A stretch of DNA of 45,449 bases from an uncultured Verrucomicrobia subdivision 3 bacterium (GTDB taxonomy: Bacteria > Verrucomicrobiota > Verrucomicrobiia > Limisphaerales > UBA11358): assembly GCA_903827955.1 (NCBI GenBank), contig CAIKKJ010000023.1, positions 1 to 45,449 on the forward strand, in the 5' to 3' direction. Under the pieces are notes generated by a model. That model ran no database searches and was not told where the DNA came from. It saw nothing but the letters and a program-made list of their open reading frames with translations. Made by a program: the position numbers and the translations under genes. Shown here piece after piece: positions 1-44,836 of the stretch; within the stretch, counting starts at the first letter, position 1; each line of letters begins with the position of its first letter.

Positions 1-2
1 GG

Positions 3-150
3 ATTAAAGATCGGTGTGCCCGCCAACCACGCAAACTGGGCAAACGAAACTGTGGTCAACGCCTGTGACGCGGGCGCGACGCCGGTGTTGTTCGTCGGGT
101 TCGGATCCAGCGTGTCGGCGATGGCCGAGGCGATGTTCGTGAACGTGCCG
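3..150 (-). pseudogene. Out-of-frame 3' continuation of the giant DUF11 repeat gene, cut by the left edge
   Basis: This is a short stretch in a different minus-strand frame from the giant ORF. It is open from the second copy of the 23-bp duplication to the window edge. It reads on exactly where the giant protein loses its homology: TNIASAIADTLDPNPTNN, then an A/V-rich link and AQFAWLAGTPIFN. The DPNPTNN end is the one closing most DUF11 units of this protein, so this is the genuine continuation. The stop of the giant ORF at 56-58 is therefore a consequence of the duplication. The rest of the protein, including its true C-terminus and any anchoring signal, lies outside the window. The frame assignment was checked codon by codon; its biological meaning is inference. 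Confidence 0.6.
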
Positions 151-12100: not shown

Positions 12101-14704
12101 GACGTAGGCACCGGTGCTCAAGTTGAGCAGTTCGTAATAACCGTTCGCATCGGAGCCGATCATCTGCAACAGCGTGCCGTCGGCGGGATTGCCGTCGGCG
12201 TTCGGATCGGTGTAGAGCGAGAGCGTGACGTTTTCCAGCGGCGCATCGCCGGCCGTCAGCGAACCGCTCTGGTCGGGGTCGGCATAAACTTTCCCGGAAA
12301 TCTGTCCAGCCGCAGTGTTCACGCCAACGACACTGGAGGCAGGCGCAACGGCGGCATTGTTGACGTCCACCGCGAAATTCGCAGCCGCCAGGTTGTTGGC
12401 AGGTGTGGCACCGCCGACAACTTTCATCGTGACATCGTTCGTGATGGCCACATTCGTAGCCATGCCGGATGCGCCGGCGAGGTTCGTCCAAAACAAATCG
12501 CCGGGCGCAATAGAATTCGGCGCGATGGCAGCGCTGACGTATTGCAGATAACTGGCGCTGTAAGTGTCTTCAAACGGGAGGTTGGTGATGGCCAGTTGCC
12601 CGGTGTTCCGGATGACGATGCGGAAGACGAGGTTGCTGCCCAGCGGCACGGGCTGGTTCGTGGGGCTTAACACGGTCTTGTTCACAGACAGGCCGCTGCG
12701 GGAGATTTGCAGCACGGCGCTGTTGGTGTTGGTGGCGCCGCCGACAGATGTTGCGATGGCGAAGTTGGTGACCGACGCGGAATAATTCGTGACGATGAAG
12801 TTGACGGCGATGTTGGTAATCTGGCCGACAGCGAACGTGCCGAGGTTCGTCCACGTCAGGCTGTTCGTGGTGACGACATTGGGCGTGACGCTGGCGGAAA
12901 TGAAGCTGAAATTTGTGCGGGGAAAACTGTCCGTGAGCGCAAGGTTGGTGAGTGCAAGGTAGCCGCTGTTGAACACCTGCAAGTTGAACGACACCGTCTG
13001 GCCAATGCCCGCCTGCGAACCGGCGGGGGCGGTGATGGTCTTGTTCACGGTCACGGCGGCGACAGGCGCAGCGATGTTCGTGAACGCGACAGTGCCGGTG
13101 TTGGTGGTGTTGCCCGGCGACGCGGCGATGGCAAAATTCGTTGCCAGCGCCGAAGTGTTCGTGACGAGCAGCGAGATGATCAGGTTGGTGTCCGCGCCGA
13201 TGGCGAGCGTGCCAAGATTGGTCCAAGTAATCTGGCCGTTGCCCGCCGTGTTTGGTGTGATATTGGCAGAAACGAAGCTGAACAGGTTCGAGGGATAATT
13301 ATCCGTGACGGAAACATTCGGCAGCGGGACGTTGCCGTTGTTGATGATTTGCAGATTGAATTGCATCGCCTGGCCAACGCCCGCAACGCCGGAGGCGGGC
13401 GACAAAATGCTTTTGCTCACGAAAAACGACGGCGCAGGCGCGATGGCCGGAACGGTGTTCGTAACCGTGATGTTGTAACCGGGCACACCGGCGGCGTTGA
13501 CGATGCTGCCGGCACCGACGATGACGGCCTTGTATTGAAATACGCTCGTGCCGCCGCTCAAGATGATGGGGATGGTGTAGCCGGGCGTGTCGAGCGGGAA
13601 CGCAGTGCCGCTAGCGCTGTCTGGAATGGATGAGCCATTGTAGCTGGTGCTGTTGGAAATGTAGCTCAAGGTGGCGGGCGGCGCGTCCACCACGACGGTG
13701 TTGCCAAGCGGGAGCAAGCCCTTGTTGTCCACCTGCACGGTGTAAAGCAACGTGTCGCCGATGCTCAAGCCGGCGGGCGGCGCATCGGTGATGATCATGG
13801 CAGACTTCGTCAGCTTCGGCACCGGGAATGGCAGCACAGGATTGCCGAGGTCGAGATAGGGATTGCTCGCGTTCGCCACGGCGGGATCTTCGCCCCACAC
13901 TGCGCTCAACAATGTCCCGTCCGTCGTATAAATCCGCAGACCGGTCTGGTCGTTCGTGCCCGGCACATAAATTGTCTTGGACTGGAACACCGTCAGGTCA
14001 AAATTCGTGTCGTATTTATTACCGTTCGGGTCGGTCAACGGCCCGGCATGGTCGCCATGATAATCCACATAAATGCGTGTGTTCGCCGTGGGCGTGACCC
14101 AGACCGGACTGCCGTTGCCGGTGTAATCCGACGTGCCCGGCGCCCAGCCCGCGACCGCTTCCGTCGTCAAACTTCCCTTGGGTAATGGCGTGAAACCCCA
14201 GTTGTATGACGTGTCATCCGCCGGCGCACCCGCCACGGTGGAAAGTGTCGTAAATTTTTCCCCACCCGCGCTGGCGAACACCGCGCCGGAACTTTGCGGC
14301 ATCAAAAATTTATACCCGCCGTTCGCCGGCAGGATGAAATTATTCGTCGCCACCAAGTTCGTATAAAAAATTGTGATCGGCGCAGTGCTATTATTGAAGA
14401 AATACATGTAGGTCGAGAACGTCGTGAAGCTATGCACCGTCGTCGGCACCGGCGTGTAATACGTCCCGCTCCAGTCGGATTGCGGATACAACGTGAACCA
14501 GTCAATCGCGTAGGTCGATACCGTATCGCCACAGACCAAATCCGCCTCAACCGGCTTGCTTGAATTAATACTCGCACCGCGCCGCACGCCGCCCGGATAA
14601 AACCATGACTCGCCCTGGTTCAACGTGTTCGTCACCGCCAGCAACGGCCCGGTGCCATCCGGGTCAATGATGACCATGGTGTTGTTCTGCGATGCCATCA
14701 CCAA
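56..14704 (-). CDS. Giant secreted DUF11 / cadherin-like repeat protein (main part, frame-disrupted at both ends)
   Basis: The ORF has 4,882 codons and opens with a TTG that is not its real start: the signal peptide lies upstream in another frame (see 14664-15302). Residues 1 to about 300 form a unique N-terminal region. About four DUF11-like units follow, then two SdrD-B-like (CNA-B fold) units with D-N-G-rich loops (ISGKVYADPDQSGS and VNGTVWNDVNGVGFF starts). The rest alternates blocks of DUF11 units (ADLxIxKTGPASV... to DPxPTNN) and Big_9/cadherin-like units (PPVANPDS... to TIGYTITDGIGGTNS). By eye there are about 20 of each, arranged as 1 Big_9, 3 DUF11, 10 Big_9, 5 DUF11, 2 Big_9, 3 DUF11, 5 Big_9, 3 DUF11, 2 Big_9, 3 DUF11. 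It is rich in Thr, Asn, Ser and Val and nearly free of Cys, as in extracellular stalk or adhesin proteins. No catalytic domain is visible. Function is unknown; cell-surface adhesion or matrix is the best guess. Confidence 0.9.
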   Translation of the reverse strand: MVMASQNNTMVIIDPDGTGPLLAVTNTLNQGESWFYPGGVRRGASINSSKPVEADLVCGDTVSTYAIDWFTLYPQSDWSGTYYTPVPTTVHSFTTFSTYMYFFNNSTAPITIFYTNLVATNNFILPANGGYKFLMPQSSGAVFASAGGEKFTTLSTVAGAPADDTSYNWGFTPLPKGSLTTEAVAGWAPGTSDYTGNGSPVWVTPTANTRIYVDYHGDHAGPLTDPNGNKYDTNFDLTVFQSKTIYVPGTNDQTGLRIYTTDGTLLSAVWGEDPAVANASNPYLDLGNPVLPFPVPKLTKSAMIITDAPPAGLSIGDTLLYTVQVDNKGLLPLGNTVVVDAPPATLSYISNSTSYNGSSIPDSASGTAFPLDTPGYTIPIILSGGTSVFQYKAVIVGAGSIVNAAGVPGYNITVTNTVPAIAPAPSFFVSKSILSPASGVAGVGQAMQFNLQIINNGNVPLPNVSVTDNYPSNLFSFVSANITPNTAGNGQITWTNLGTLAIGADTNLIISLLVTNTSALATNFAIAASPGNTTNTGTVAFTNIAAPVAAVTVNKTITAPAGSQAGIGQTVSFNLQVFNSGYLALTNLALTDSFPRTNFSFISASVTPNVVTTNSLTWTNLGTFAVGQITNIAVNFIVTNYSASVTNFAIATSVGGATNTNSAVLQISRSGLSVNKTVLSPTNQPVPLGSNLVFRIVIRNTGQLAITNLPFEDTYSASYLQYVSAAIAPNSIAPGDLFWTNLAGASGMATNVAITNDVTMKVVGGATPANNLAAANFAVDVNNAAVAPASSVVGVNTAAGQISGKVYADPDQSGSLTAGDAPLENVTLSLYTDPNADGNPADGTLLQMIGSDANGYYELLNLSTGAYVVVETILPGYTGTAPANNRLAVTISSLTAATNQNFFQYQIPAANYATVNGTVWNDVNGVGFFQAGDTGLTNVQVDLIQDLNTNGIVDAGETAVQSVFTSTNGAYFFSGVAPGRYVLREIDSPGYISTGDTQGTNDNQIAVNLGNGVTTNGNNFFDFYFGLGNTNSPPVAVPDFTNTLQNVPVVILPLLNDNSPGGFALTITNAAATNGTVSIIGGTNILFTPANYFVGTATIGYTVTNVNGASTSLITITVAPVADLRIAKTGPASVLAVSNLTYTISVTNFGPSSASSVTVTDTLPNNVTFVSATGGGTNNNGLVTWNLGTLNSNQTSSVTVTVTAPASGTLTNSASVGAPTADTNGLNNVTPPVITSVTPLADLLITKTGPASVNALSNFSYTISVTNLGPSSASSVTVTDALPNGVTFSNATASGTNLGGNIVWNLGTLAALQATNFTLTVIAPANSITLTNLARVSSPTGDTNVLNNTNPPVITTVSPLVDVSITKTGPAGIIFGTNYNYQITVSNAGPSLATSLIVTDSLPVGLAFVTSTPLTTTNASNQVVWNIGSLAANTASNLTLTVISTQRGSLTNFASGGSPTPDPTPTNNVTPPVVTLVTNFPPLANPDSYAMTENTSSTLAPLVNDVVRTPGGSLIIVSFSATNGVANLIGGTNFSFSPTANFTGTATIGYTITDNVGGTNSSLITISVTNIPPLANPDSGSMAQNTTNTFSPLGNDSVQTPGGTLIVTGATTTNGFVSFTATTVAFTPANNFIGTVLLNYTISDGIGGTAGSTITVSVTNRPPVAVNDSGSTPKNVAVTIPALANDSDPDGNPISLVGVSPTNGTANIVGTNVVFTPTNNFLGTTFIGYRISDGFGGTNSALISILVTNRAPVAVNDSGSTPKNVSVTIPVLVNDSDPDGDAVTIISVSPTNGLAVISGTNVVFTPTNNFLGTAFIGYTISDGSGGTAFALIAITVTNRPPVAGNDSASAPENVAVAIPVLVNDSDSDGDTLTIISVSPTNGTASINGTNVIFTPATNFLGAATVGYGITDGFGGTNFAVIIISVTNRPPVANPDSYAMTENTTNTLSVLVNDIVVTPGGTLTISSVTPTNGAASISGTNIIFTPTLNFLGTATIGYTITDGIGGTNSSVATVTVTNIPPLANPDTYFVAENAATNGLSPLLNDLVQTPGGTLSLVSVTTTNGHVAVSGNQVLFAPTTNFLGATTLIYTITDGIGGTSSTNITINVVNVPPLALPDTYSVAENTTNTLTPLLNDIVRTIGGVLGIVSISPTNGTATIIGGTNVLFTPANNFIGTATIGYTIIDNIGGTNNSVITVNVTNVPPLANPDTYTMTENTTNTLPVLVNDLVITPGGTLAIVSVTPTNGTASISGTNIVFTPPLNFLGTATIGYAITDGIGGTNSTVVTVTVTNIPPVANPDGYTIFQNSTNTLSPLTNDIVRTPGGTLSIVSVSLTNGTASISGTNIIFTPTPGFTGTATIGYTITDGIGGTNSTVITVNVQALADIAVTKTGAPSVYAATNFDYTINVTNFGPGLAANLSVTDNLPATATFVSSTAGATLTGSQLVWTNLGSLAANAATTLTVTVTAPLTLQTLTNLASAGSPTSDPNPTNNTSPPVFTSVTPIANLVIAKTAPASVIATSNLTYSIFVTNFGPSFASSVVVTDTLPATVFFVSATAGGVNSSGLVTWSLGTLAANQATNFTVLVTAPTSGTLTNVANVSSPTLDTNILNNTTPPVITTVTPQSDLQIGKTGAASVLAVSNLTYTISVTNFGPSSASSVTVTDALPSGVTFVNASGNGANNSGIVTWSIAMLNSNQVTNVTVTVTAPTSGSLTNVASVGPPVNDPNPTNNTTPPVITTVTPQFDLAIVKSGPATVNAATNFTYNISVTNLGPSSASSIIVTDTLPANITFVSASGNGATNNGIVTWNISTLSNNQVTNLTVTVIAPASGSVTNVASVGPPTNDPNPTNNTTPPVTTTVTPLADVSLVKTAPATVTPGTNFIYNLVVTNSGPSSSQNLSVTDSLPANVTLVSATTGFIVNGGQLIWTNLGALAANAATNLSLTVTAPLRGSVTNTASAGSPTGDPVPTNNVTPPVTTTVLNLAPVAQDDFAGTPVNVAVTVFPLGNDFDTNGDALFVTAASATNGAASFTPTNVLFTPTANFLGTATVGYTISDGNGGTASAIIFISVTNRPPVANNDSASGTNGLAQTILPLVNDTDPDSDALTITSATTTNGIVSVGGSGTNLVFTPTNGSTTINYTISDGRGGSSSAVITVNVSSVADLGIGKTAAASVLAESNLTYTISVTNFGPSSASSVTVTDALPVGVSFVSASGNGATNGGNVIWSLGTLAAAQTTNLTLIVTAPASGSLTNFARTGSPTPDPVPTNNVTPPVITTVTPLADLVIAKTGPVSVSAASTFSYTISVTNFGPSSANSVTVTDTLPVGITFSNASAGGANLGGNVIWNLGTMTASQATNLTLTVIAPNNGTTMTNVANVSSPTGDTNVLNNTSPPVVTSVTPVADVSVLKTGPAGIIFGTNYNYQITVSNGGPSTATSLIVTDSLPVGLVFVTSTPLTTTNASNQVIWNLGNLSANTASNLQLTVISTLRGSLTNFASGGSPVPDPTPTNNVTPPVVTVVTNFPPLANPDSASMTENTTNTLSPLVNDIVRTPGGSLTIISITPTNGTTSISGTNVIFVPTLNFVGIATIGYTITDNVGGTNSSVITVTVTNIPPIANPDSYSMAQNTTNTFSPTANDTLRTLGGTLSLVSLNPTNGTASISGTNVIFTPTLNFLGTATIGYTITDGIGGTNSSLITINVTNRPPVANPDSYAMTENTTNTLPVLVNDLVITPDGTLAIVSVTPTNGTASINGTNIVFVPTLNFLGTATIGYTITDGIGGTNSSVATVTVTNIPPLANPDASSMAENTTNTLSPLANDVVRTPGGTLSIIGVSPTNGTANINGTNVTFVPTLNFVGVTTIGYTITDGIGGTNSSVITVTVTNQSPIAFPQTLSTTENVALPITLTGVDPVSRPLTFIIVSAPSGGTLTGLNTNTGAVIYTPTNNFTGTDSFVFRVNNGVNNSSNATITISVTPTADLLVQQSGPPSGVAGNNLVFTVAVTNLGPASATNVVVTNQIAAGYTFVSASGNGATNGNLVTWTIPVLPANGATNLTVTLLALEGGTFTNLASGSNTTLDLNATNNNGSLTNAQVITTVAASANLAITKTGPANVNATGSVIYNLSVTNSGPSTATGVIVTDSLPANVTFVSASGNGATNGNLVTWNLGTLANGATSNLTVTVIAPASGSLTNIASIGSPTPDPVPTNNVTPPVTTTVTTIADLAVGKSGAASSALGLNFTYTISVTNLGPSSAVNFAVTDSLPAGIVFVSSVPLVTTNASSQVIWTNLGTLALNATTNLTLTVKAVTRSAVTNFATVGGPTVDLTPTNNTSPPVVTSITNRPPLAVDDSGSTPKNVAITVPVLVNDSDLDGDALTIVSVSPTNGTANISGTNVIFTPANNFSGTAFIGYTITDGFGGTNSALITVNVTNRPPVANAQSTSTPFNTAKPLTLTGSDPDNDPLTFIIISSPGNGALSLLDTNTGAVTYTPANNFTGTDTFTFRVNDGAANSATATVSITVGTPVIADLAVFKTGPTNSTAGSNLVYSITVTNLGTFAATNVIVSDTLPAGFTFISATPPNSSLVSNVVSWAVFKLAANAKTNFTLTAVSLEGGTFTNFATATSDAYDPNPTNNNGTATNSQVRTVIAATADVQVFKDGGTNVAAGGTVNYVITATNAGPSTATNVVVKDQLPAGATLQTASGSYTFSNNVVTWSALTLTNGASVNYTIALTAPASGQFTNIALATSPTPDPNLTNNNGSLNKARVATKVVPSADLIVLLFGPTNAVQGSNFVYSLILSNAGPSVASNAITSDQLPTNFMFVSATSGGVFSNGIVHWPKIAFLNVGSTSNYFITVNSPFLGTFTNIASARSRTSPRPSPTRWIRTRRTTPASRPRHRR
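125..176. repeat. 23-bp tandem duplication (two full copies plus 6 bp)
   Basis: Positions 125-147 and 148-170 are identical 23-mers, followed by the first six bases of a third copy at 171-176. Because 23 is not a multiple of three, the duplication shifts the minus-strand reading frame. Upstream the giant protein reads GTFTNIAS. After the junction it becomes an Arg/Thr/Pro-rich tail typical of a wrong frame and stops at 56. Removing one copy restores a DUF11-like end. It may be a recent slippage mutation or an assembly artefact near a repeat-rich end. Confidence 0.9.
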
Positions 14705-30042: not shown

Positions 30043-30192
30043 AAACGACTGGCATACCAAATGAATTTTTGCCCCTGATGCTTTGGATCATCGAGCATCT
30101 TAAATAACCCACTTTTACAGAACGTTTGTCGGGTGGCCGAGGTTTTGAAGTTGGGTTAGATTGTGGGCATCTATCCCAAACCACTAATCACT

Positions 30193-33100
30193 ATGCATTC
30201 TTCACGGAACCAAGCAATCGCTTTATTCTGCGTGGCACTGGCTGTCATTTGGACTTCAGCAACCGCCTTAGCGCAATCATACGTGGCGGGTTCACCGCCC
30301 AACGACGCGACGGCGGCAAAATATTTTCCCTACCACTTCACAACCGTATCTAACATCAAATACGGCTCCGGTTCATCGCAAGTAGGCGACATCTGGCTGC
30401 CCAATTATTCCGGACAGCCCACGCCTGCCAACAGCACCAGTCGCCCGGCGGTCGTCGTCGTGCACGGCGGCGGGGGCACCAGCGGCAGCCGCAACAGCAC
30501 GCGGGAACTACAAATCAGTGGATTCTGTGCTTCGCACGGTTATGTGGCATTTAACATTGATTACCCGATTGGCGCGGTATATCCGCAGAACATTCAATCC
30601 TGGCGACTGGCGGTGAGGTTTCTACGGGCTAATGCTGCCACTTATGGCATTGATCCCAATCACATCGGCATCACCGGTGGTTCCTTTGGCGGTTATTGCA
30701 GTGGATTCCTGAGCGGCATTACGAACGGCCAACACACGATCGAGGCAGACAGCAACTCCAAATACAATAATGCGTCGCTTGATTTGGACAGCGCGGGAGA
30801 TCTCGCTGCTTACTCCGGCGATATTCAATGCGGGATTGATTTGTATGGCCCGATGGACCAAGTCACGTCCGGCAACGCGGGGGGCCAATATAGCAGCCCT
30901 ACTACGGCGACACTTTTTAATTCTTCCCCGGTCAATTACGTTCACGCGACGTCGGCTCCGCTGATGATTGCGCACGGCACCGCGGACACCACCGTCAGCA
31001 TTTCGCAAAGCAAGACGATGACCAATCGGCTGGGGCAATTGCATGTGCCCTACCAGTTCTGTGTGGTGCAAAATGCAGCACACACCTTTTACTATTACCA
31101 GAGCAGCGGCGGTTCATGGCCGCCGGGCAATTCGGCGCTCGACCTGCGCGCGACCGCCTTTGACTGGTTCGATAAATATCTGCTGGCGGCTGCAAATCCG
31201 CCGGTTATTTCCGTTCAGCCCACACCGCAATCTGGCTGTTCGGGTTATGCGGCCAGCTTTAGCGTGACTGTGACCGGCACTTCTCCGCTTCACTATCAAT
31301 GGTCTGGTCCCAGCGGCGTCATTGCCAACGCAACTAATGCCACCTATACGATCGCCAGCTTGAGCGGCGTAAACGTGGGAAATTATTTCGTCACCATCAC
31401 CAATAGCTTCGGCAGCGTGACGAGCAGCAGCGTCGCCCTCGTAGTTAACACGGCCACGCCACCGGGAATCACCGTGCAGCCGGCCAACACCTCTGTTTTG
31501 GCGGGCAATGCAACCAACTTGATTGTGGTTGCCACAGGTGATGCCCTGCAATACCAGTGGTCGGGGCCCAATGGTGTCATCGCCAACGCCACCAATGCGA
31601 CCTACACCATCACGAATGCGGCCAACAGTGACGCAGGGAGTTATTCTGTGGTGGTTTACAATTCCTGCAATGCCGTGACCAGCTCGAATGCAATCCTGAC
31701 CGTCAATGGTCCACCCAGCATTACCGGCCAGCCGCTTAGCGTCATCACCTGCACCGGCACCTCTGCCAGCTTGTTTGCCGCGGCAAATGGCACAGCACCC
31801 TTGAGCTATCAGTGGTATGGAGTCATTAACGGAATTATTTCCGGAGCCACTTCCAACAGTCTCACTTTGAATAATCTTAGCGTTGCTGATTCCGACAATT
31901 ATTACCTGGTGGTAACCAATGCCTTTGGTTCCGCCAACAGCAGCAACGCCTTGCTGACCGTCAGCGCCAATTCCAACGTGACCATTACCAGCGATGCCAC
32001 GAACACGGAAGTAGCGGCAGGCGGCACGGCGATTTTTAGCGTGAGCGTCAGCGGCGGCGGACCCTACACCTACGTTTGGCTAAAGAACGACTATGATACG
32101 ATCTCAAACAATCCGTCCGCCACAACCGCCACACTGGTGTTGACTAATGTGACCGCAGCGGATTCGGCCTATTATCATTGCTTCATCAATAACGATTGCT
32201 TCACCGCTTCGTCGACCAACGCCACCTTGGTCGTGGATGTGGCGCCGACAATCACGCAGCAGCCGCTGAGTAGCACTAACAATGTGAATGCCACCGTGAC
32301 GCTAAGCGTGACTGCCGACGGCACTTTGCCCATCAGCTATCAGTGGAGAACGAACGGTGTTAACTTGGCCAACGCCACCAACAGCACACTGGTGTTCAAT
32401 TCGATTCAGACTTTTAACGCCGGCGCTTATGACGTCATCGTCGCCAATAACTTCGGTTCCGTGACGAGCGCTGTGGCCAATGTGTCCGTGAATATTTCCA
32501 CCACTGGCTCGATTGCGTCGAGTAGTGCCGCCTCGGTGCAGAGCGCCGCCAACGCCGCCCTGGATATCGACGAGCAAACCGCCGGCTATGTCAAAGTTAA
32601 GTTTTCCACCGTCACCGGAACGGGAACGGGTATGGCCAAAGGATATTATGGATTTGATTTGACGGGTCAGAATCCGAATACGAACTCGCCGGCCACATTG
32701 AATGTTCCCTGCTTGTCGGCTTCCGGCGCAACTCACATTCAAGTTTGGGGCCTCCTCCAAGCTTACCCAGGAATGGCCAACAACATCACTTGGAACACGG
32801 CGCAAGCGAACGACACCACTACGAATGGAATGTTGACCAGCGGTGGTTTTACTGCCGCCACTATTGGAACCAACACGCCCTGTGCCGGCGGGGCCGTGAC
32901 CAATGTCATTACCCTACCAGCCGGCTGGGGGCAATTCATTGTAAGCAATAAATTGGTGTTGGTGCTAACGCCGGCCAATCCCACGGGCGATAGTGCGAAT
33001 GGCTTCCGCCCGAACATCACGAACCTACCCGTGCTAGCATTTAACTTGGCTGGTCAGATCACCACGCCAACCATCTCAACCCAGCCAAGCAGCCTGGCAG

Positions 33101-36100
33101 TGTGTTCCAATACCCCGGTCAACTTCACCGTGGTTGCCGGAGGTGCCCAGCCGCTGAGTTATCAATGGCAGTATGGCGGAGTGAATATTAATCCCGGCGC
33201 AAATCCTTCGGCTGCGACTGCGACCCTATCGTTAACCAGCCCAAGCCCCGCCAACAACGGTAACTATCAAGTAATTATCACCAATTCCTATGGTGCGGTA
33301 ACAAGCAGCATCGCCTCGTTGACGGTCAGCGCGGATCCGCCGGTTAATGTCATCACCCCGCCCGCGAATACCAGCGGAGTATTGGGTGGCAGCGCGAGCT
33401 TCACGGTCGCGGCCAACGGCGGCACTTTGACTTATCAATGGTATCAAGGCGCGACCCCGATTTCCGGCGGGACCAATGCCACCTTGAATTTAAGCAATTT
33501 GACCACCAACAGCGCCGGCAGCTATACGGTGTTGATCAATAATTCCTGCGGTAACGCCAGCCAGTCCGCCACATTAACCATCAACACACCGCCTGTCATC
33601 ACGCAACAACCGGCGAATCAAAGCGTTTTCGTCGGTGGCTCGGCTAGCTTCAGTGTCACGGCGACCGGGACCACGCCCCTGGTCTATCAGTGGCGCAGTA
33701 ATAGTGTTCCCATCAATGGGGCGAATAACATCACTTACACTTTGACTGGCGCAACCACGAATCAATCCGGTTATGCATTTGACGTCATCATTACCAATAA
33801 CTTTGGCTCGGTTACCAGTTCACCGGCTGCGACGTTGACGGTCTCTCCCATCACTTCTTCAGGAACCGTGGTGATTAGTGAAGTCTATGCCGGTGGTGGC
33901 AAGACGGGCGCACCTTACAAATATGACTATGTGGTTTTGAAAAACATCAGCGCCAATCCGGTGAGCATCAATGGTTGGTCGCTGCAACACGATAAAGTTG
34001 GTGTCTGGCAAACGCCTTTTGCCCTACCCAACGCCACATTACCCGCCGGCGGCTACTACCTGATTCAATGTTATAACGATGGAAGCGCTGGGACAAATGG
34101 TTCCAATCTGCCCGCTCCGGATGCCACCGCAACCCAGTCCAGCGTTTGGAACATGTCTTATGCCTCAGCAGATGCGGTAGCTCTGGTCAACAATACTACC
34201 ACTTTGACCTCGTGCTCATCCTCTAGTGTCGTTGACTTGGTTGGCGCAGGCACCGCCACCGGCAATTGCTATCTCGGATCCGGGGTCACGCCTGCCGGCG
34301 CTTCCGCAACATTGGCGATGACGCGCGCGGGAGGCGGATGTCAGAATATCGGCGACAACTCGATTGATTTCGCGACGGCGGCGCCCAGCCCAAAAAACAG
34401 TGCGACCACGCCCGTATCGTGTGCAATCCCAAATCAGCCGCCAACAATTACAACCCAGCCGTTGAGCCACGTGACTTCCGGCCCGACGACGAGTTTTAGT
34501 GTAGCCGTGGCCGGCACCGCGCCGTTTGCCTATCAATGGTTCGCCGGTGTTTCGCCGATCAGCGGAGCGACTAATATCAGTTATGTCTTGAACAATGTGA
34601 CCTCGAATAATTCTGGAAACACATTCTATGTTGTTGTGACCAATATTTATGGCGCGGCGACTAGTTCAGTTGCGGTTCTGACATTTAACCCATACTATAA
34701 CGAATTACTATCTTTGGAGGCGGTCAAATCGCATTATTATCTTCAAACCAACACGACGGCAGTGGATTTGCCGGTTGCCTCCGGCGGAACTTATTCCTGG
34801 GCCGCCGAAGCGCAAGGAATTTTGCCGGCGCAGATCACTGGCACGACGGTAAGTTATGCCGGAACCAATCTGCCGAATCCGTTTGTTCAGTCGGCGATGG
34901 ATGACACCGGTTTGGCGCAGGACGAACTGCTCTACGGCACGAAGAATGCCCTGGATGCCGCTTTCAACAATGGTAATTACCATTATGTCACGACGTTCGA
35001 CAGCGGAAACACTTACGTGAATGACCTGCCGCTCGGCACCAATGGCGATGCCTACCCGAATGTTCCGACCCTGACTGCGCCGGTTGGTGATTGGTCGGCA
35101 GGCAAATTGACGGTGCATGCGGTTACTGGCGGTTATGCGTTGAGTTGGGTGCCGCTGACAGCGCCGCAAGACCAGATCAATATTGCCATCAATGACGCCG
35201 CTGGCAATGCCATCACTGAATTGGATGGGTTGCCCGGCAACATCACGAATTATGTCTTGCCTGGAAGCATTTTGGATCCGAACAAGGATTACCAACTGGA
35301 GTTGACCTTCACGCACATGAATTATCGGGGAACAAATGCGGTCGGCACCATCTTGTATGGTTTGTTTGAAGCCAACAACGATTTCACGGTGCACACGGAC
35401 CCGACGGGCGTGGCTGGCGGCGTGCAGGCGACCAACTATGCAACCATTCGCAACGGAACCAACAGTTTGAACGACATCAACGAGCAAGCATTCGGTTACT
35501 TGATGGCCAAATACAGCACCAATGGAAGTTCTGCCAAGGCCTATCTGCAATTCAATTTGGCGGGGGCAAATTATGATGCGACCCAACCAGCCACATTGCG
35601 ACTGTATCCGGGCACTGGCGGTGGTTCGCAACGCATCCAAATCTGGGCGCTAAATCAGGCGTTTACCGCGCCAACAAATTTGAACAACCTCAATTGGAAT
35701 CAGGCTCCCGCCAACGATACCAATGGCAACAGTATGTTGACCAGTGGTGCCGCTACTGCCAGTTTGCTGACAGATGTGCAATTGGCGAATACAACCAACG
35801 AAATCATCATTCCTGCGCCATGGGGACAATTTGTCTTTAACAATCAAGTAACCTTGGTTATTGGAACATCGATCGCGATAGCCGGAGATGTCAACAGCAG
35901 CGCAGGATTCCGCGTAGCGGCGACGAACGGTGTTCCGTTGCCGACCTTGCGCTTTAGTTCCGGCCCGAATTACACCCAATTTCAACAGGCCTATGACGCG
36001 GGCCTCGGTTTGTTCGGCGGCGAGAATGTGATCTTCACGAACACCAGCGGCCTGACTTTTTATGCGTGGTCATCCGCCGATCCAACACTTCCGGTCTCGA

Positions 36101-37068
36101 GTTGGAATTTGGAAGGGACAATGAACGAGTTGCCGCTCGGCACTTCCGGCAATAGCCGCTTCGGCATCAATCTGAATCCGGGGGCGTCGCCGGTGTATTA
36201 CATCTTCGCAACCACCAACGCCGGCCCATATTTGGCAACGGAAAATCTCGCGTGGCTCACGACCGATGACTATGTCATTTTCAATGTCAATGGGACCAAT
36301 ATGCCCATTAGCACCAACGGGATCTTTGCTTTTGCACAGGCACCGACGATTTCGCAGAACCCAGTGGATCAAACCGTGGTTACTGGTGGCAATGCCAGTT
36401 TCAATGTGGTGGCCAGCGGGTCTGCGCCGTTGTTTTATCAGTGGCGCAAGGGAGGTTTCTCGCTCGCCGGTTCCACGAATTTAACCCTGCAAATTAATGG
36501 CGTCACCGCGCCGGATGCCGGGGCTTACGATGTGGTGGTGTCGAACTTCGTCGGCTCGGTCACGAGTTCGGTGGCGATGCTGATTATCAGCAATCCGCCA
36601 CCCGTCATCACGCAGCAGCCGACTGGCCGCACAGTGCTGGTTGGTCAAAGTGCTGGCTTCACCGTGAGTGCCACGGGAACCGGATTAGGTTATCAATGGT
36701 TATTCAACAGTTCCAACGTCGCGGGAGCAAACCTATCTAATCTTACATTGACGAATGTATCGTTGGCGCAGGCGGGGAATTATTCCGTTCGCGTCACCAA
36801 CACCTCGGGCGCAGTGACCAGCAGCAATGCGTTGTTGCAAGTTTCGTTACCGCCGCAACTGTCGGTGAGCAGCGGCTCGCCTGGGACGATTCAATTCAGC
36901 GGCAATTCCATCACGGGCCTGACCTATGTTGTGCAACAAAATACCAATCTGGGATCAGCCAACTGGGTTCCAGTATTCACCAACAACACGGGTGGCTCCG
37001 GCACCTACAACTTCAGCACGAACTCAACCGGCGCGACGAGCGTGTTCTATCGTCTGATGTTTCCCTGA
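30193..37068 (+). CDS. Large secreted esterase with Ig-like, DNRLRE and lamin-tail domains
   Basis: The start is the ATG at 30193 (MHSSRNQAIALFCVALAVIW), with signal cleavage after ATALA; an open frame from 30163 only adds ten residues. About residues 25-335 are an alpha/beta-hydrolase esterase: oxyanion motif VVVHGGGG, nucleophile Ser in TGGSFGGYCSG, Asp in IAHGTADTTV, His in QNAAHTFYY. Several Ig-like domains follow (YQWSGPSG...VTSSNA pattern), then a DNRLRE-type domain (about 770-955), more Ig, and a lamin-tail domain (about 1226-1415, VVISEVYAGGGKTG). After a unique region come a second DNRLRE (about 1743-1922), a module shared with the next gene (about 1933-2047), two Ig domains and the shared C-terminal module ending FYRLMFP. 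It is probably extracellular, perhaps removing acyl groups from plant or algal polysaccharide. The substrate is unknown. Confidence 0.88.
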   Translation: MHSSRNQAIALFCVALAVIWTSATALAQSYVAGSPPNDATAAKYFPYHFTTVSNIKYGSGSSQVGDIWLPNYSGQPTPANSTSRPAVVVVHGGGGTSGSRNSTRELQISGFCASHGYVAFNIDYPIGAVYPQNIQSWRLAVRFLRANAATYGIDPNHIGITGGSFGGYCSGFLSGITNGQHTIEADSNSKYNNASLDLDSAGDLAAYSGDIQCGIDLYGPMDQVTSGNAGGQYSSPTTATLFNSSPVNYVHATSAPLMIAHGTADTTVSISQSKTMTNRLGQLHVPYQFCVVQNAAHTFYYYQSSGGSWPPGNSALDLRATAFDWFDKYLLAAANPPVISVQPTPQSGCSGYAASFSVTVTGTSPLHYQWSGPSGVIANATNATYTIASLSGVNVGNYFVTITNSFGSVTSSSVALVVNTATPPGITVQPANTSVLAGNATNLIVVATGDALQYQWSGPNGVIANATNATYTITNAANSDAGSYSVVVYNSCNAVTSSNAILTVNGPPSITGQPLSVITCTGTSASLFAAANGTAPLSYQWYGVINGIISGATSNSLTLNNLSVADSDNYYLVVTNAFGSANSSNALLTVSANSNVTITSDATNTEVAAGGTAIFSVSVSGGGPYTYVWLKNDYDTISNNPSATTATLVLTNVTAADSAYYHCFINNDCFTASSTNATLVVDVAPTITQQPLSSTNNVNATVTLSVTADGTLPISYQWRTNGVNLANATNSTLVFNSIQTFNAGAYDVIVANNFGSVTSAVANVSVNISTTGSIASSSAASVQSAANAALDIDEQTAGYVKVKFSTVTGTGTGMAKGYYGFDLTGQNPNTNSPATLNVPCLSASGATHIQVWGLLQAYPGMANNITWNTAQANDTTTNGMLTSGGFTAATIGTNTPCAGGAVTNVITLPAGWGQFIVSNKLVLVLTPANPTGDSANGFRPNITNLPVLAFNLAGQITTPTISTQPSSLAVCSNTPVNFTVVAGGAQPLSYQWQYGGVNINPGANPSAATATLSLTSPSPANNGNYQVIITNSYGAVTSSIASLTVSADPPVNVITPPANTSGVLGGSASFTVAANGGTLTYQWYQGATPISGGTNATLNLSNLTTNSAGSYTVLINNSCGNASQSATLTINTPPVITQQPANQSVFVGGSASFSVTATGTTPLVYQWRSNSVPINGANNITYTLTGATTNQSGYAFDVIITNNFGSVTSSPAATLTVSPITSSGTVVISEVYAGGGKTGAPYKYDYVVLKNISANPVSINGWSLQHDKVGVWQTPFALPNATLPAGGYYLIQCYNDGSAGTNGSNLPAPDATATQSSVWNMSYASADAVALVNNTTTLTSCSSSSVVDLVGAGTATGNCYLGSGVTPAGASATLAMTRAGGGCQNIGDNSIDFATAAPSPKNSATTPVSCAIPNQPPTITTQPLSHVTSGPTTSFSVAVAGTAPFAYQWFAGVSPISGATNISYVLNNVTSNNSGNTFYVVVTNIYGAATSSVAVLTFNPYYNELLSLEAVKSHYYLQTNTTAVDLPVASGGTYSWAAEAQGILPAQITGTTVSYAGTNLPNPFVQSAMDDTGLAQDELLYGTKNALDAAFNNGNYHYVTTFDSGNTYVNDLPLGTNGDAYPNVPTLTAPVGDWSAGKLTVHAVTGGYALSWVPLTAPQDQINIAINDAAGNAITELDGLPGNITNYVLPGSILDPNKDYQLELTFTHMNYRGTNAVGTILYGLFEANNDFTVHTDPTGVAGGVQATNYATIRNGTNSLNDINEQAFGYLMAKYSTNGSSAKAYLQFNLAGANYDATQPATLRLYPGTGGGSQRIQIWALNQAFTAPTNLNNLNWNQAPANDTNGNSMLTSGAATASLLTDVQLANTTNEIIIPAPWGQFVFNNQVTLVIGTSIAIAGDVNSSAGFRVAATNGVPLPTLRFSSGPNYTQFQQAYDAGLGLFGGENVIFTNTSGLTFYAWSSADPTLPVSSWNLEGTMNELPLGTSGNSRFGINLNPGASPVYYIFATTNAGPYLATENLAWLTTDDYVIFNVNGTNMPISTNGIFAFAQAPTISQNPVDQTVVTGGNASFNVVASGSAPLFYQWRKGGFSLAGSTNLTLQINGVTAPDAGAYDVVVSNFVGSVTSSVAMLIISNPPPVITQQPTGRTVLVGQSAGFTVSATGTGLGYQWLFNSSNVAGANLSNLTLTNVSLAQAGNYSVRVTNTSGAVTSSNALLQVSLPPQLSVSSGSPGTIQFSGNSITGLTYVVQQNTNLGSANWVPVFTNNTGGSGTYNFSTNSTGATSVFYRLMFP
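35989..36333. repeat. Copy 1 of a 345-bp inverted pair encoding the shared YDAGLG module
   Basis: This stretch encodes AYDAGLGLFGGENVIFTN through STNGIFAF. It has an inverted partner of exactly the same length at 37547-37891. By eye the proteins share about 80% of their residues, and the DNA is clearly alike at both ends of the unit (for example GCGTGGTCATCCGCCGATCC in each). I know no named domain for it. Confidence 0.8.
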
Positions 37069-37078
37069 ACTTTCAGGG
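37063..37078. terminator. Small hairpin holding both stop codons of two convergent genes
   Basis: CCCTGA (37063-37068) pairs with TCAGGG (37073-37078) around a 4-nt loop. The TGA in the left arm is the stop of the esterase gene. The TCA in the right arm is the stop, on the other strand, of the autotransporter-strand gene. The stem is short and has no T-run, so a role in ending transcription is only possible. Confidence 0.4.
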
Positions 37079-39835
37079 GAACCTCAGACGGAAAAAACGA
37101 TTGGTGTCAGAATAAGAATTGGTTTGGAAAATCAGGTTTCCGCTGACACCAGTGTTATTTGTCCATACCGGAATCCAAGCTAGCATCGTGAGATCGGCTG
37201 TGCTTTCTACGACATAGGTTAGCCCGGTCAGTGAATTGCCCGTGATTTGCAAGCCGGAGGTGCTTGAAAAAATGGCAATCGCAGGCGGCAGGCTGACGCT
37301 TAGGGCGGCCACACTGCTAGTCGCTGATCCTAAATAATTGGTCACGACCACGAAGTATGTGGCCGCTTGCGAAGCGTTCACGTTCGTCAGAACCAATGCT
37401 GAGGCGCTCTCACTCGGGATGATTGAATTATTGAAAAACCATTGGTAGCTCAAGGTCGATCCGGATGCCGTCACAGAAAAATTGGCGTTTTGGCCGGCGA
37501 GCACTGATGTCGTTACTGGCTGTTGAGTGATGACTGGTGGAGTCGGGAACTGAAAAATGCCGTTGGTGGTGATGGGCGCGTTGGTGGTGGTCACATTGAA
37601 AATCACAAAGTCATCGGTGGTGAGCCAGGCGAGCGGCTCGGTGGGGTTGTAAGGGCCGGTGTTCGTGGTCCCAAAAATATAATAGGTTGGAGATACGCCG
37701 GGATTGAGATTGATGCCGTAACGACTGAAACCAGACGTGCCGAGCGGAAGCTCATTCATCCGGCCTTCCAAATTCCAAGTCGTGACCGGGATGGTGGGAT
37801 CGGCGGATGACCACGCATAAATGGGCGTGCCACTGGTATTAGTGAAAATCACGTTTTCGCCGCCGAACAAACCTAGGCCGGCATCATACGCGATGAAGAA
37901 TTGCTGCACGTTCAAATACAGTTTGCCACCGGTAATTTCCAATTTTGACGTGAGTCCGGGCGCAAGCCCCGCACCACTGATGACGACTGCGTTGGTAGCG
38001 TTGCCGGAAACGGAGCCACCAGCACTCGTGTCGGCGAGCAAGTAAAGTCCGTGGGGCAACGGCGAACCCAAAACTGTGATGGTGGCGGAGCCGCCGCCGA
38101 GCGTGAAATTTCCACCGGAAATATTCAGCGCGGGATTGCCGTTGGCGTATTCAAGAAATAGCGGGCTGGCGTTCCCCATTTTCAAACCGCCAATCGCACT
38201 GCAGTTGATATTTGCGGCAACTCCATTTTGGCTGGTGACGCGCAGGGTTTGTGAATTGGGTGTCGTCCAAGTGGTGTTCAACGCCGAGACATCGAACGTC
38301 ATCCCGCCCGGGATCACGAGGTTTGTCGCGTTGTTGAAAGAGCCGTTGCCGCTCAATGCGAGCGTGCCGGCGGCGATGATGACGGAGCCGCTGAAGGTGT
38401 TTGAGGCGCTTAAGACGAGTTTGCCCGGACCCTGTTTGACGATGCCGAGCGACGTTCCGGCGGCGTTCGTGATCACGCCCGCGAACGTCGTCGTCGCGGT
38501 GTTGCTGATGGTGAACTGCGTGAAGTTAGTGTGGATGAGGATGCGCCCGGCGAGCGTGAGATTTTGCGAACCTTTGATCTGAATGTTGGTGCAACCGAGG
38601 GCGGTCGAGGCGGAGCTGCTGTTCACGTCCACGAGAATGTCATTGGTCAAAATGCGCGCGGCGTCCACGGCGTAAAGTCCGATGGGATTGGCGTCCGTGC
38701 CGACAAGAATGTTGCCCGTGCCGAGACAATTATTTGCGCCGAGGCCAAAAAATCCAGCGCGCAGTTCCGTGCCGCCGGTGTAGGAATTGGCGTTGCTGAA
38801 AATCACATTGCCGCCGGGATTCACATCAATGTTTTTGTAAACCACGCCACCACCTTTGATGAGGCCGGTGAAAACGACGTCCGAGCCGCCCGCTGGATTA
38901 TTGGTGCAGAACAGTTCCAGGAACGCTTTGTCCGTCGTGCCGTTCGCGCCGAGCGTGAGGTTGCCCGCGTAATTGTAGCCGCCCGCGTAGAGCCGAAAAT
39001 GATTCGTGCCGACCGTGCCGGTGTTGGTAAGCATGAGGGTCGTGCCAGCGTTGCCGGTGAACGGCGATTCAAAATGCACCGTGCGCGTGGAGGTGGTCGT
39101 GGTGCGGATGATGGAGTTTGCCGTGACGTTGACCGGTGAGAGATAAGCGTTGTTGCGCCGCGGGGTGATGCTTTGCGCGGCGCGTTCGAACGTGCCGCCG
39201 GCGAGCACGAGCGTGGAATTATTCAGGTAAGCGCCATCGGTAAGTTGCAACACACCGGCGTTCAATGTTGTGTTGCCGGAATACTGATTGGACGCGGTGA
39301 GCGTCAAAAATCCCCCGCCAGTCTTGGTGAAGCCGTTGCCGGCGATGACCATGTAACTGACAATCTGCGAGGTTGCGTCAACGATGGCGTTGGGAAGCGT
39401 GTTGCTCAACACGAGCGGAAACGCCGGTGAAACTCCGAAGCCGTTCGAGATCACCAACGTGGTTGTGCCCAAACCGGCATTGCGCAAAATCGTGTTGGGA
39501 ATGCCGTTCACCATCGCGCCGTTCAGTTGCAAAATGCCACTGGCGGAACCGGTGTTGCCAAAAACCAGATTAGCGCTGCTGCGCGAACTCGTCACTTCGA
39601 TGGCTCCTGCCGACACCACGCCGCCGGCAGCAGTCAGGTTGATTCCCACGCCGACAGCACCAGTTGGTGTTGAGCTAAATTGCAGGTATTCCGTGCCGTT
39701 AGTTGGCGCGAGATTGGAATTCCAGTTGAGCGGATCCAGCCAGCCGGTAGCAGCGCTGGCATTGGTCCAAACTACCTGACCATGGAGGTTCGTCGCCAAC
39801 GCAACAAAAAGCAGGGGCATGAGAAAGCGGTTCAT
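37073..39835 (-). CDS. Secreted autotransporter-associated beta-strand repeat (PATR) protein with Ig domain
   Basis: The start is the ATG at 39835, supported by AAGGA five bases upstream (39841-39845); in-frame starts at 39871 or 39931 would add up to 32 residues before the signal peptide. The signal is MNRFLMPLLFVALATNLHG. About residues 20-640 form a repetitive beta-helix-like passenger: WTNASAATGWLDPLNWNSN, then PATR units such as FTKTGGGFLTLTASNQYSG and GIVKQGPGKLVLSASNTFSG. There follow the module shared with the esterase gene (about 648-762), one Ig-like domain and the C-terminal module ending FFRLRFP. No beta-barrel autotransporter domain is present, so secretion must use another route. 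It is probably an adhesin or extracellular matrix protein. The frame lies 4 bp from the end of the convergent esterase gene. Confidence 0.85.
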   Translation of the reverse strand: MNRFLMPLLFVALATNLHGQVVWTNASAATGWLDPLNWNSNLAPTNGTEYLQFSSTPTGAVGVGINLTAAGGVVSAGAIEVTSSRSSANLVFGNTGSASGILQLNGAMVNGIPNTILRNAGLGTTTLVISNGFGVSPAFPLVLSNTLPNAIVDATSQIVSYMVIAGNGFTKTGGGFLTLTASNQYSGNTTLNAGVLQLTDGAYLNNSTLVLAGGTFERAAQSITPRRNNAYLSPVNVTANSIIRTTTTSTRTVHFESPFTGNAGTTLMLTNTGTVGTNHFRLYAGGYNYAGNLTLGANGTTDKAFLELFCTNNPAGGSDVVFTGLIKGGGVVYKNIDVNPGGNVIFSNANSYTGGTELRAGFFGLGANNCLGTGNILVGTDANPIGLYAVDAARILTNDILVDVNSSSASTALGCTNIQIKGSQNLTLAGRILIHTNFTQFTISNTATTTFAGVITNAAGTSLGIVKQGPGKLVLSASNTFSGSVIIAAGTLALSGNGSFNNATNLVIPGGMTFDVSALNTTWTTPNSQTLRVTSQNGVAANINCSAIGGLKMGNASPLFLEYANGNPALNISGGNFTLGGGSATITVLGSPLPHGLYLLADTSAGGSVSGNATNAVVISGAGLAPGLTSKLEITGGKLYLNVQQFFIAYDAGLGLFGGENVIFTNTSGTPIYAWSSADPTIPVTTWNLEGRMNELPLGTSGFSRYGINLNPGVSPTYYIFGTTNTGPYNPTEPLAWLTTDDFVIFNVTTTNAPITTNGIFQFPTPPVITQQPVTTSVLAGQNANFSVTASGSTLSYQWFFNNSIIPSESASALVLTNVNASQAATYFVVVTNYLGSATSSVAALSVSLPPAIAIFSSTSGLQITGNSLTGLTYVVESTADLTMLAWIPVWTNNTGVSGNLIFQTNSYSDTNRFFRLRFP
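37547..37891. repeat. Copy 2 of the 345-bp inverted pair encoding the shared YDAGLG module
   Basis: Minus-strand counterpart of 35989-36333. It encodes AYDAGLGLFGGENVIFTN through TTNGIFQF. The two copies face each other about 1.2 kb apart around the shared gene ends, so they could form an inverted duplication or undergo gene conversion. Confidence 0.8.
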
Positions 39836-39888
39836 CAGATTCCTTATGACCTTACAGATGCCATTACTCATTTGATTTGAAAAGTTAT

Positions 39889-39900
39889 ATTTCCGGAAAT
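39889..39900. promoter_or_regulatory. Perfect 12-bp palindrome in a divergent promoter region
   Basis: ATTTCCGGAAAT lies 54 bp upstream of the PATR gene start and about 100 bp upstream of the sigma factor start, in the only non-coding gap between them. Its symmetry and place suit an operator for a dimeric regulator of either gene. Chance cannot be excluded from a single site. Confidence 0.3.
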
Positions 39901-39998
39901 GTCTGCCAGCGTCAAAAGGTAGGTTAAGCATCCTAAAATTGCTGTGTTTAGCGGGGCTGGCAAAGGCTGGAAATATCGCGTAGTTTGTATGCCAGCCA

Positions 39999-42919: not shown

Positions 42920-44836
42920 TTATGGAAATAACAGCCGATAATAAGCGTTCGGTAGGCTGGTAGAGTTGGTCTGGAAATTGACCACCCCGGAAGCGCCTGT
43001 GTTATTGGTCAGAATGGGCGTCCAGACCGATGTAGTCAGGTTGGTGTTGCGTTGCACGACGTAGGTCACATTGGTAAGCGTGGTTCCAGTCAACTGGATG
43101 TTGGCACCGGCAATGACCGATCCGATGGTGGGACGAACCCCGACGTTCAAAGCAGTGACGCTGCTCGTCACCGCGCCGGAGCCGTTGGTGATAACTACGG
43201 TGTAATTCCCGGTATTGCCAGTCGTAACCGAAGTTAGCGTGAGGTTACTCGTCGTTACCCCACCAAAGACACCGCTGTTGGCCAGGTTACCACTGCCGTT
43301 CCGCCACTGATATGCCAGTGGTGCCGTGCCGGTGGCGAACACCCCGATGGTGGAATTTTGTCCGGCAATCAAACTAAGGCCGGCGGGCGGTTGCGCGGTA
43401 ATGGACGGCGCAGTGCCGCCGCCCGCTACCGACAGGACCACCGGGGAACTGGTAACACTGCCCCAAAAGTTGGTGGCCACGGCAGTGTAAGTAGCGGCAT
43501 CAGCGCCAGTGACGCCGGTGAGCGACAGGCTGGCTACGAGAGAGTTGTTCGTATAGAGCGTGCCGGAGGATGGGTTCAACACCAGCGTGTTTGAGGCAAT
43601 CACCACGCCGTTCTTTAGCCAGAACACATTCGGCACGGCATTGGTCTGGTTCACGAAGTTGCCGTTGACGTCCAAACCGTAGCTGGCATCGAGCGTGCCA
43701 CGCACGTTGAGGTTGAAGGTCACGTTGTTCCCGGCGTTAATGTTGGTGGTGGCCGGAAGCTGGTTGGTGAAGGCCGGCAAAAACCCGAAGGAACAGTATG
43801 AATCATAATTTTGATTGACCACGATGCCGCCGCCCGCATTGGAGCTGCTCAAGGATACGGTATAGATACTACTTTGCGCCGGAATCACCTGGCTGGCGGT
43901 CAAAGACAGGGTGTTAGAGGTGCTGGCGGTCACACCGCCCTTTTGCCAAATATAATAGTTGGTGGTGGAGGTGGTATTATTAGTTAGCAAGCTGAACATG
44001 GTCAGAGCATTGGCAGCCGGGGCGTAATTAATATAATCTAGCGCGCTATAATTTGTGCCGCCAGTGATACAGACGGACAGATAACAGTTAGCTTTTGGCA
44101 ACAGGGCAAACGACTGACCGACGTTAGCCAAGTTGGAGGCGGTCAAGGTGTAGACACCCGCGTTGGTCAATTGGATATTGCTGAAACTGAGAACAGAATT
44201 TGTGGCCCCAGCAATAGGCTGGGCGTTCTGCCACCACTGATATTGTGGAATAGGATTGCCGCCGGCTCCGCCACTCAATTGCACGTCGGTGCCGACTTGC
44301 GCACAGGTATTCGGCGGTGCAGCACTGAGTGTCGGTGCGACCGTGCCGCCACCAGATGAACCAACGACCAGAGTAGTGGAACGCGTGTCGCTGTGACTGC
44401 CACTGCAACCGCTGCCGCTCCATACCTTGACCGAGAATAAGTAACTCGACGCATTGGTGGGTGTGCCTGAAACTGTTGCCTTGTTCCCCCCCCCATACAC
44501 GATAGTAAGACCATCCAGAAACGAGAACGCGCTTCCAATGCAGTTGTTGGAATAAGTCATCGAGTTGACTGAGCCGGCATGACCACCGGAATACGTAATG
44601 GTTCCGCTGTATAAGCTTCCCACTACGGCGTTGGCCGGTGAAATCGAAATGCTGGACGCCTGTGACACCGCGTCAAAGCCAATCAGGGCCACGGCGCCAA
44701 CGCCAATTTTCAGGACGATGGCCCAAGTTGATGGCGCAAGGCCTTGTTGCGCGGGTAAAATGGATCGCAGCAGCGGCGCAAGTTGCAACAGCGCCGCCAG
44801 CAAAACGGATAACATTTGGATGAGTCTGGTTTTCAT
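42920..44836 (-). CDS. Secreted Ig-like domain protein with cysteines and the shared C-terminal module
   Basis: The 638-residue protein begins MKTRLIQMLSVLLAALLQL and has two hydrophobic stretches (about 5-22 and 38-55). The second ends in DAVSQASS, so the long N-terminus may be an unusual signal sequence or anchor. A putative cadherin/Put_Ig-like domain follows (ISISPANAVVGSLYSGTITY). Several Ig-like domains come next (YQWWQNAQPIAGATNSVLSF; YQWRNGSGNLANSG), then the module ending YYRLLFP. It carries several Cys residues (in SNNCIGSAF, GSGCSGSH, PPNTCAQVG, KANCYLSVC, SYCSFG), more than the other surface proteins here. It lies 36 bp after the DsbD-like gene on the same strand. Function is unknown. 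Confidence 0.85.
   Translation of the reverse strand: MKTRLIQMLSVLLAALLQLAPLLRSILPAQQGLAPSTWAIVLKIGVGAVALIGFDAVSQASSISISPANAVVGSLYSGTITYSGGHAGSVNSMTYSNNCIGSAFSFLDGLTIVYGGGNKATVSGTPTNASSYLFSVKVWSGSGCSGSHSDTRSTTLVVGSSGGGTVAPTLSAAPPNTCAQVGTDVQLSGGAGGNPIPQYQWWQNAQPIAGATNSVLSFSNIQLTNAGVYTLTASNLANVGQSFALLPKANCYLSVCITGGTNYSALDYINYAPAANALTMFSLLTNNTTSTTNYYIWQKGGVTASTSNTLSLTASQVIPAQSSIYTVSLSSSNAGGGIVVNQNYDSYCSFGFLPAFTNQLPATTNINAGNNVTFNLNVRGTLDASYGLDVNGNFVNQTNAVPNVFWLKNGVVIASNTLVLNPSSGTLYTNNSLVASLSLTGVTGADAATYTAVATNFWGSVTSSPVVLSVAGGGTAPSITAQPPAGLSLIAGQNSTIGVFATGTAPLAYQWRNGSGNLANSGVFGGVTTSNLTLTSVTTGNTGNYTVVITNGSGAVTSSVTALNVGVRPTIGSVIAGANIQLTGTTLTNVTYVVQRNTNLTTSVWTPILTNNTGASGVVNFQTNSTSLPNAYYRLLFP

Follow-up and report, generated by a model that had tools for sequence, protein, structure and literature searches.

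A predicted beta-sandwich module shared by two convergent secreted-protein genes of a Limisphaerales bacterium and related to a C-terminal domain of the order

Two convergent genes with a common block

The window, that is, the whole stretch of 45,449 nucleotides analysed here, carries two convergent genes for large secreted proteins whose stop codons are separated by 4 bases. The first encodes a signal peptide (recognised by eye), a BD-FAE/alpha-beta hydrolase esterase, many Ig domains, an LTD, the module discussed here, two further Ig domains and a terminal domain that we call the 'FYR' domain. In the second, a signal peptide (also by eye) is followed by PATR repeats, the module, one Ig domain and again a terminal domain. 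The coordinates are collected in Table 1.

Table 1. Positions in the window of the host genes, the module copies and the domains that follow them
Feature	Positions	Strand	Remarks
Host gene 1	30163..37068	+	2301 aa; BD-FAE esterase
Module copy 1, esterase gene	35980..36333	+	118 aa
Portion of module copy 1 matched independently by the terminal-domain profile	36031..36201	+	E 2.5e-5
Two Ig domains of gene 1, between module and terminal domain	36340..36858	+	approximate boundaries
Terminal 'FYR' domain, gene 1	36859..37065	+	terminal-domain profile
Host gene 2	37073..39931	-	952 aa; PATR
Terminal 'FYR' domain, gene 2	37076..37270	-	terminal-domain profile
Ig domain, gene 2	37277..37540	-	approximate boundaries
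Module copy 2, PATR gene	37547..37900	-	118 aa
Terminal 'FYR' domain of a third secreted-protein gene, without module	42923..43120	-	terminal-domain profile

An earlier note on this DNA described a block of about 115 residues, common to both genes at about 80% identity. The block is confirmed as an ungapped domain of 118 aa, with 79-80% amino acid and 73-76% nucleotide identity between the copies, the value of 73% being measured across all 118 codons. It appears in the DNA as an inverted repeat with arms at 35989-36327 and 37553-37891, each of 339 nt, gap-free and 76% complementary. A BLASTP E value of 5e-73 between the two genes shows that their similarity is not due to chance. The parts upstream of the module are unrelated, but the two genes do not otherwise differ completely, as had been stated, since the downstream Ig domains (56%) and terminal domains (49%) are homologous.

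Occurrence of the module and its place in host proteins

Searches with single copies and with a 15-copy alignment returned no convincing family for the module in Pfam, NCBIfam, PHROGs or the PDB sequences, and no match to the Ig and fn3 models of Pfam. Isolated matches to nsp9 (E 0.0065), to DUF2782 (0.0011, in 2 of 15 members) and to virginiamycin B lyase (0.65) were taken as chance. Going by titles and abstracts, none of the papers returned by literature searches describes either the module or the terminal domain. The suggestion that the block may be a new cell-surface domain is thereby supported to the extent of an unnamed domain of secreted proteins that matches no curated library.

The proposed profile search did recover other copies, both in the same genome and in other genomes of the Limisphaerales. 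The source genome (G000) holds three. The third is split between two contigs, C158 and C210, whose ends overlap exactly over 141 bases within the module; they therefore most likely belong to a single gene broken by assembly. Within the genus, 7 of 49 genomes have full-length modules, as does one genome in each of two other families of the order; copies in other genomes number about 18, and genome G040 has at least eight among the matches listed. In a phylum sample of 387 genomes only the source genome matched at E 1e-6. Scanning genome contigs with a single sequence found nothing, and an alignment-based scan gave nine loci. Named relatives that carry the module are mainly MAGs of Limisphaerales or 'Verrucomicrobia subdivision 3'. 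Across 15 copies from several species, 15 alignment columns are invariant, including W30, W42, D6, E15, E50 and Y74. The module is a genuine lineage domain of the Limisphaerales.

Its hosts have N-terminal parts of the esterase, PATR, pro-kumamolisin, phosphoesterase and Gly-rich kinds. The usual place is upstream of the (Ig-)terminal domain end, tandem pairs are found in G013 and G040, and at loci L075 and L073 the module lies mid-protein. At locus L072 it sits right behind an apparent signal peptide, as judged by eye; in this locus (2-9706, minus strand) the module stands at the start of a giant ORF, of 5536 aa in the genome search, that is rich in Calx-beta-like repeats, also recognised by eye. 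On contig C31 of G040, two module-bearing genes (4785-8690 and 8771-13384 of locus L071) stand in tandem, 80 bases apart, an arrangement that recalls the pair in the window.

The esterases offer a closer view of how the module may have reached its hosts. Of the five in the clade, three have the module, at differing places, and two are without it. In the window esterase it follows '...TLRFSSGPNYTQ' ahead of the last two Ig domains. In the esterase of G046 it comes after the LTD ('...CATPATQ'), and at the counterpart of the window's insertion place the sequence runs directly into an Ig domain ('TLRYAAPQIVSGPPPVIAQQP') with no module. The esterase on contig C31 of G040 has it ahead of the last Ig domain, and both the nearest esterase, on contig C45 of G040 (79% in the catalytic part), and that of G041 are without it. 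An AU test rejected trees that unite the modules of the three esterases in one clade (p 2e-8), with groups set by domain content and not by the tree, and with a small esterase sample. Given the different places and this rejection, the evidence favours repeated insertion into esterases over one ancestral insertion. Had the module been inserted once and its copies then been converted within each genome, this would fit the module tree, in which copies tend to cluster by genome and most inner branches are weakly supported, but it would not fit the differing positions. As for the neighbouring LTD, it is also present in the G046 ortholog of the 30163-37068 esterase, and Pfam reported none in the ortholog on contig C31 of G040. 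The PATR gene differs in this respect: its full-length ortholog in G026 (63% over 915 aa) has a module at the same place.

Predicted fold and kinship with the terminal domain

The structure prediction that had been recommended yields a confident all-beta sandwich for the module (AlphaFold2, pLDDT 94.3, pTM 0.87), with strands at residues 5-9, 15-22, 28-32, 43-52, 58-65 and 72-77, plus 87-95 and 101-110. A Foldseek search of the PDB gave no significant match (best E 6e-3, TM 0.28). Across Foldseek and VIA only generic Ig, FnIII and CBM sandwiches resemble the model, with Z at most 5.8 and about 5 only for CBM-containing structures, so that the fold points to no ligand.

The terminal domain is far more abundant. 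Its profile has 79 matches in the source genome at E <= 0.01, one of them the module itself and a few borderline ones possibly false, and the number of copies is about 75. In 20 of 20 sampled copies the domain, which ends in FYRxxxP, leaves 0-6 residues to the stop codon. Neither Pfam nor NCBIfam has a model for it. The predicted fold is FnIII-like; the model resembles the N-terminal domain of the pectate lyase PelI (Z 7.4, 68 residues, 2.3 A), and the profile weakly matches PDB 4zy9 (E 0.0017, 50 residues). Sorting tags typically keep to such a terminal position, and the domain is a candidate for C-terminal sorting or anchoring. Secretin genes are present in the source genome, and the export route of these proteins does not follow from them. 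The Por_Secre_tail profile of the T9SS CTD matched neither module nor terminal domain in the NCBIfam search; a search for the T9SS translocon SprA gave no signal in any control genome and hence says little on T9SS absence.

Several lines of comparison connect the two domains. Across the order, secreted proteins give weak matches to the module profile, at positions of about 13-77, in their terminal domain. In reverse, the terminal-domain profile finds the module at E 2.5e-5, and an iterated search picked up a module copy. Aligning the two alignments with hhalign gave a probability of 95% (E 2.4e-8), a level reached only with enlarged alignments, small seed sets giving mixed results (79% for a FYLLRQP-type set, and 0.5%, that is nothing, for a FYRLxFP-type set). 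In the controlled run (95.6%), the score was 47.3 over 58 columns; 100 column shuffles reached 18.5 at most, and an Ig control scored 11.2. The AlphaFold2 model of the terminal domain has strands at residues 5-8, 14-19, 25-31, 40-46, 52-56 and 66-70, and by the secondary structure of the two models the six-strand core has the same order in both. That the module is a relative of the terminal 'FYR' domain of the order is well supported. Judged from the models, it looks like the six common strands (residues 5-77) with a hairpin added (residues 87-110). The terminal domain is much more widely distributed, with matches at E 1e-6 in 29 of 145 genomes of the phylum, which suggests descent from terminal domain to module. 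Since the module is internal in every copy with a complete downstream end, away from the C-terminal position of the 'FYR' family, we regard it as a derived relative of that family and not as a member.

This kinship raises the question of whether the module could be a second sorting or processing signal, recognised by the export or anchoring machinery that reads the terminal domain. Its homology to a domain that was strictly terminal in all 20 samples, and its frequent position near the C-terminus, would agree with such a role. We nevertheless consider it improbable, as the module is internal in all copies, even just past an apparent signal peptide or in mid-protein at the loci mentioned above, and its hosts retain a terminal domain of their own.

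Age, possible function and known systems

The earlier note took the high identity of the two copies as a sign of recent duplication or gene conversion. The synonymous sites, however, are near saturation (pS 0.65, dS about 1.5), and the identity reflects purifying selection (dN 0.16). Of 90 codons with the same residue in both copies, 47 are identical, where 35 would be expected if saturation were complete (z 2.7). A recent origin is thus not supported, but comparison with the adjacent part does reveal an excess of shared sites bounded by the block. Within the module, 22 sites are common to both window copies against G026 and 6 to the PATR orthologs, whereas in the adjacent Ig and terminal part 13 sites unite the window copies and 15 the PATR orthologs (Fisher p 0.026 for the contrast; binomial p 0.004 for the module). 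A cruder difference-count test gave p 0.097, an AU test does not reject the PATR orthologs as sisters (p 0.11), and the sister grouping of the window copies has weak support (84/29). Because the excess is confined to the module, old copying or conversion within the genome is likely; that the module alone was copied or converted from one neighbour to the other, later than the divergence from G026, is moderately supported.

A recent event between the convergent genes, with no wider family behind it, would suit the inverted orientation of adjacent genes and the block-bounded excess, but near-saturated synonymous sites, the third copy in the genome and the roughly 18 elsewhere make it very hard to credit. 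It is refuted as a complete explanation, though an old conversion event is likely. What stands of the earlier reading is an unnamed domain with a block-bounded history; the recurrence in other genomes and the kinship with the terminal domain had been missed.

We propose that in the Limisphaerales large Sec-exported surface proteins carry the module as an autonomous beta-sandwich domain. It is a relative of the order's terminal domain, with the same six strands and an added hairpin. It has moved among unrelated host genes and entered related esterases independently; in the source genome it was probably copied once from one convergent neighbour to the other, with a long period of purifying selection thereafter. 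To this explanation as a whole, from the sandwich fold and terminal-domain kinship to shuffling, old within-genome copying and a binding role, we assign a probability of roughly 0.7.

Of its parts, function is the most tentative. The module may be an extracellular accessory domain that binds polysaccharide or the cell envelope and positions host enzymes or passengers, a role we put at slightly under even odds. It is suggested by the autonomous fold, the invariant aromatic and acidic residues, the fact that its hosts include a feruloyl-esterase-like enzyme as well as other exported proteins, and a lower divergence than in neighbouring domains. Between the PATR orthologs, identity is 66% in the module, 58% in the Ig and 51% in the terminal domain; the passenger equals the module at 66%, so no exceptional constraint acts on the module. 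A ligand-free spacer of the stalk, interchangeable with the neighbouring Ig sandwiches, is a less likely but serious competitor. The module always lies among Ig, Calx-beta or FnIII-type domains, its position and copy number vary (tandem pairs included) and its fold is generic, all of which a spacer would explain, while the 15 invariant columns and the divergence below that of the Ig and terminal domains argue against it. Going further, the FnIII-like terminal domain might be an export or surface-anchoring tag in Limisphaerales and related Verrucomicrobia, and the module its internalised, expanded derivative, spreading by repeated within-genome copying and now binding a ligand; this combined scenario is speculative and, on balance, doubtful.

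To our knowledge, export and anchoring of giant secreted proteins in soil and freshwater Verrucomicrobia are poorly described. The clear boundaries of the module and its mobility between hosts offer a profile for annotating uncharacterised proteins, and its terminal relative, in dozens of proteins of the source genome, is a candidate sorting tag.

Among known systems, fibronectin type III and Ig-like sandwiches share the general fold, and the terminal-domain model lies near PelI, but there is no Pfam fn3 or Ig sequence match and the structural similarity of the module is low. The CBM of a Paenibacillus chitosanase/glucanase (PDB 4zy9) is weakly matched by the terminal-domain profile over part of its length only, and not by the module profile. 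Like T9SS CTD, PEP-CTERM and MYXO-CTERM tags, the module's terminal relative stands at the very C-terminal end of exported proteins, here dozens of them, but it has no NCBIfam match and no terminal hydrophobic helix, and the module itself is internal. A counterpart in the same proteins is the terminal 'FYR' domain, which is widespread, measures about 70 aa and is strictly C-terminal, whereas the module is internal, has 118 aa, starts with DAGxGFFGGEN and has one hairpin more. Homology nevertheless extends across module residues of about 15-76, both have a G...W...G pattern, and the equivalent of W30 is present in some terminal domains (FTVWST).
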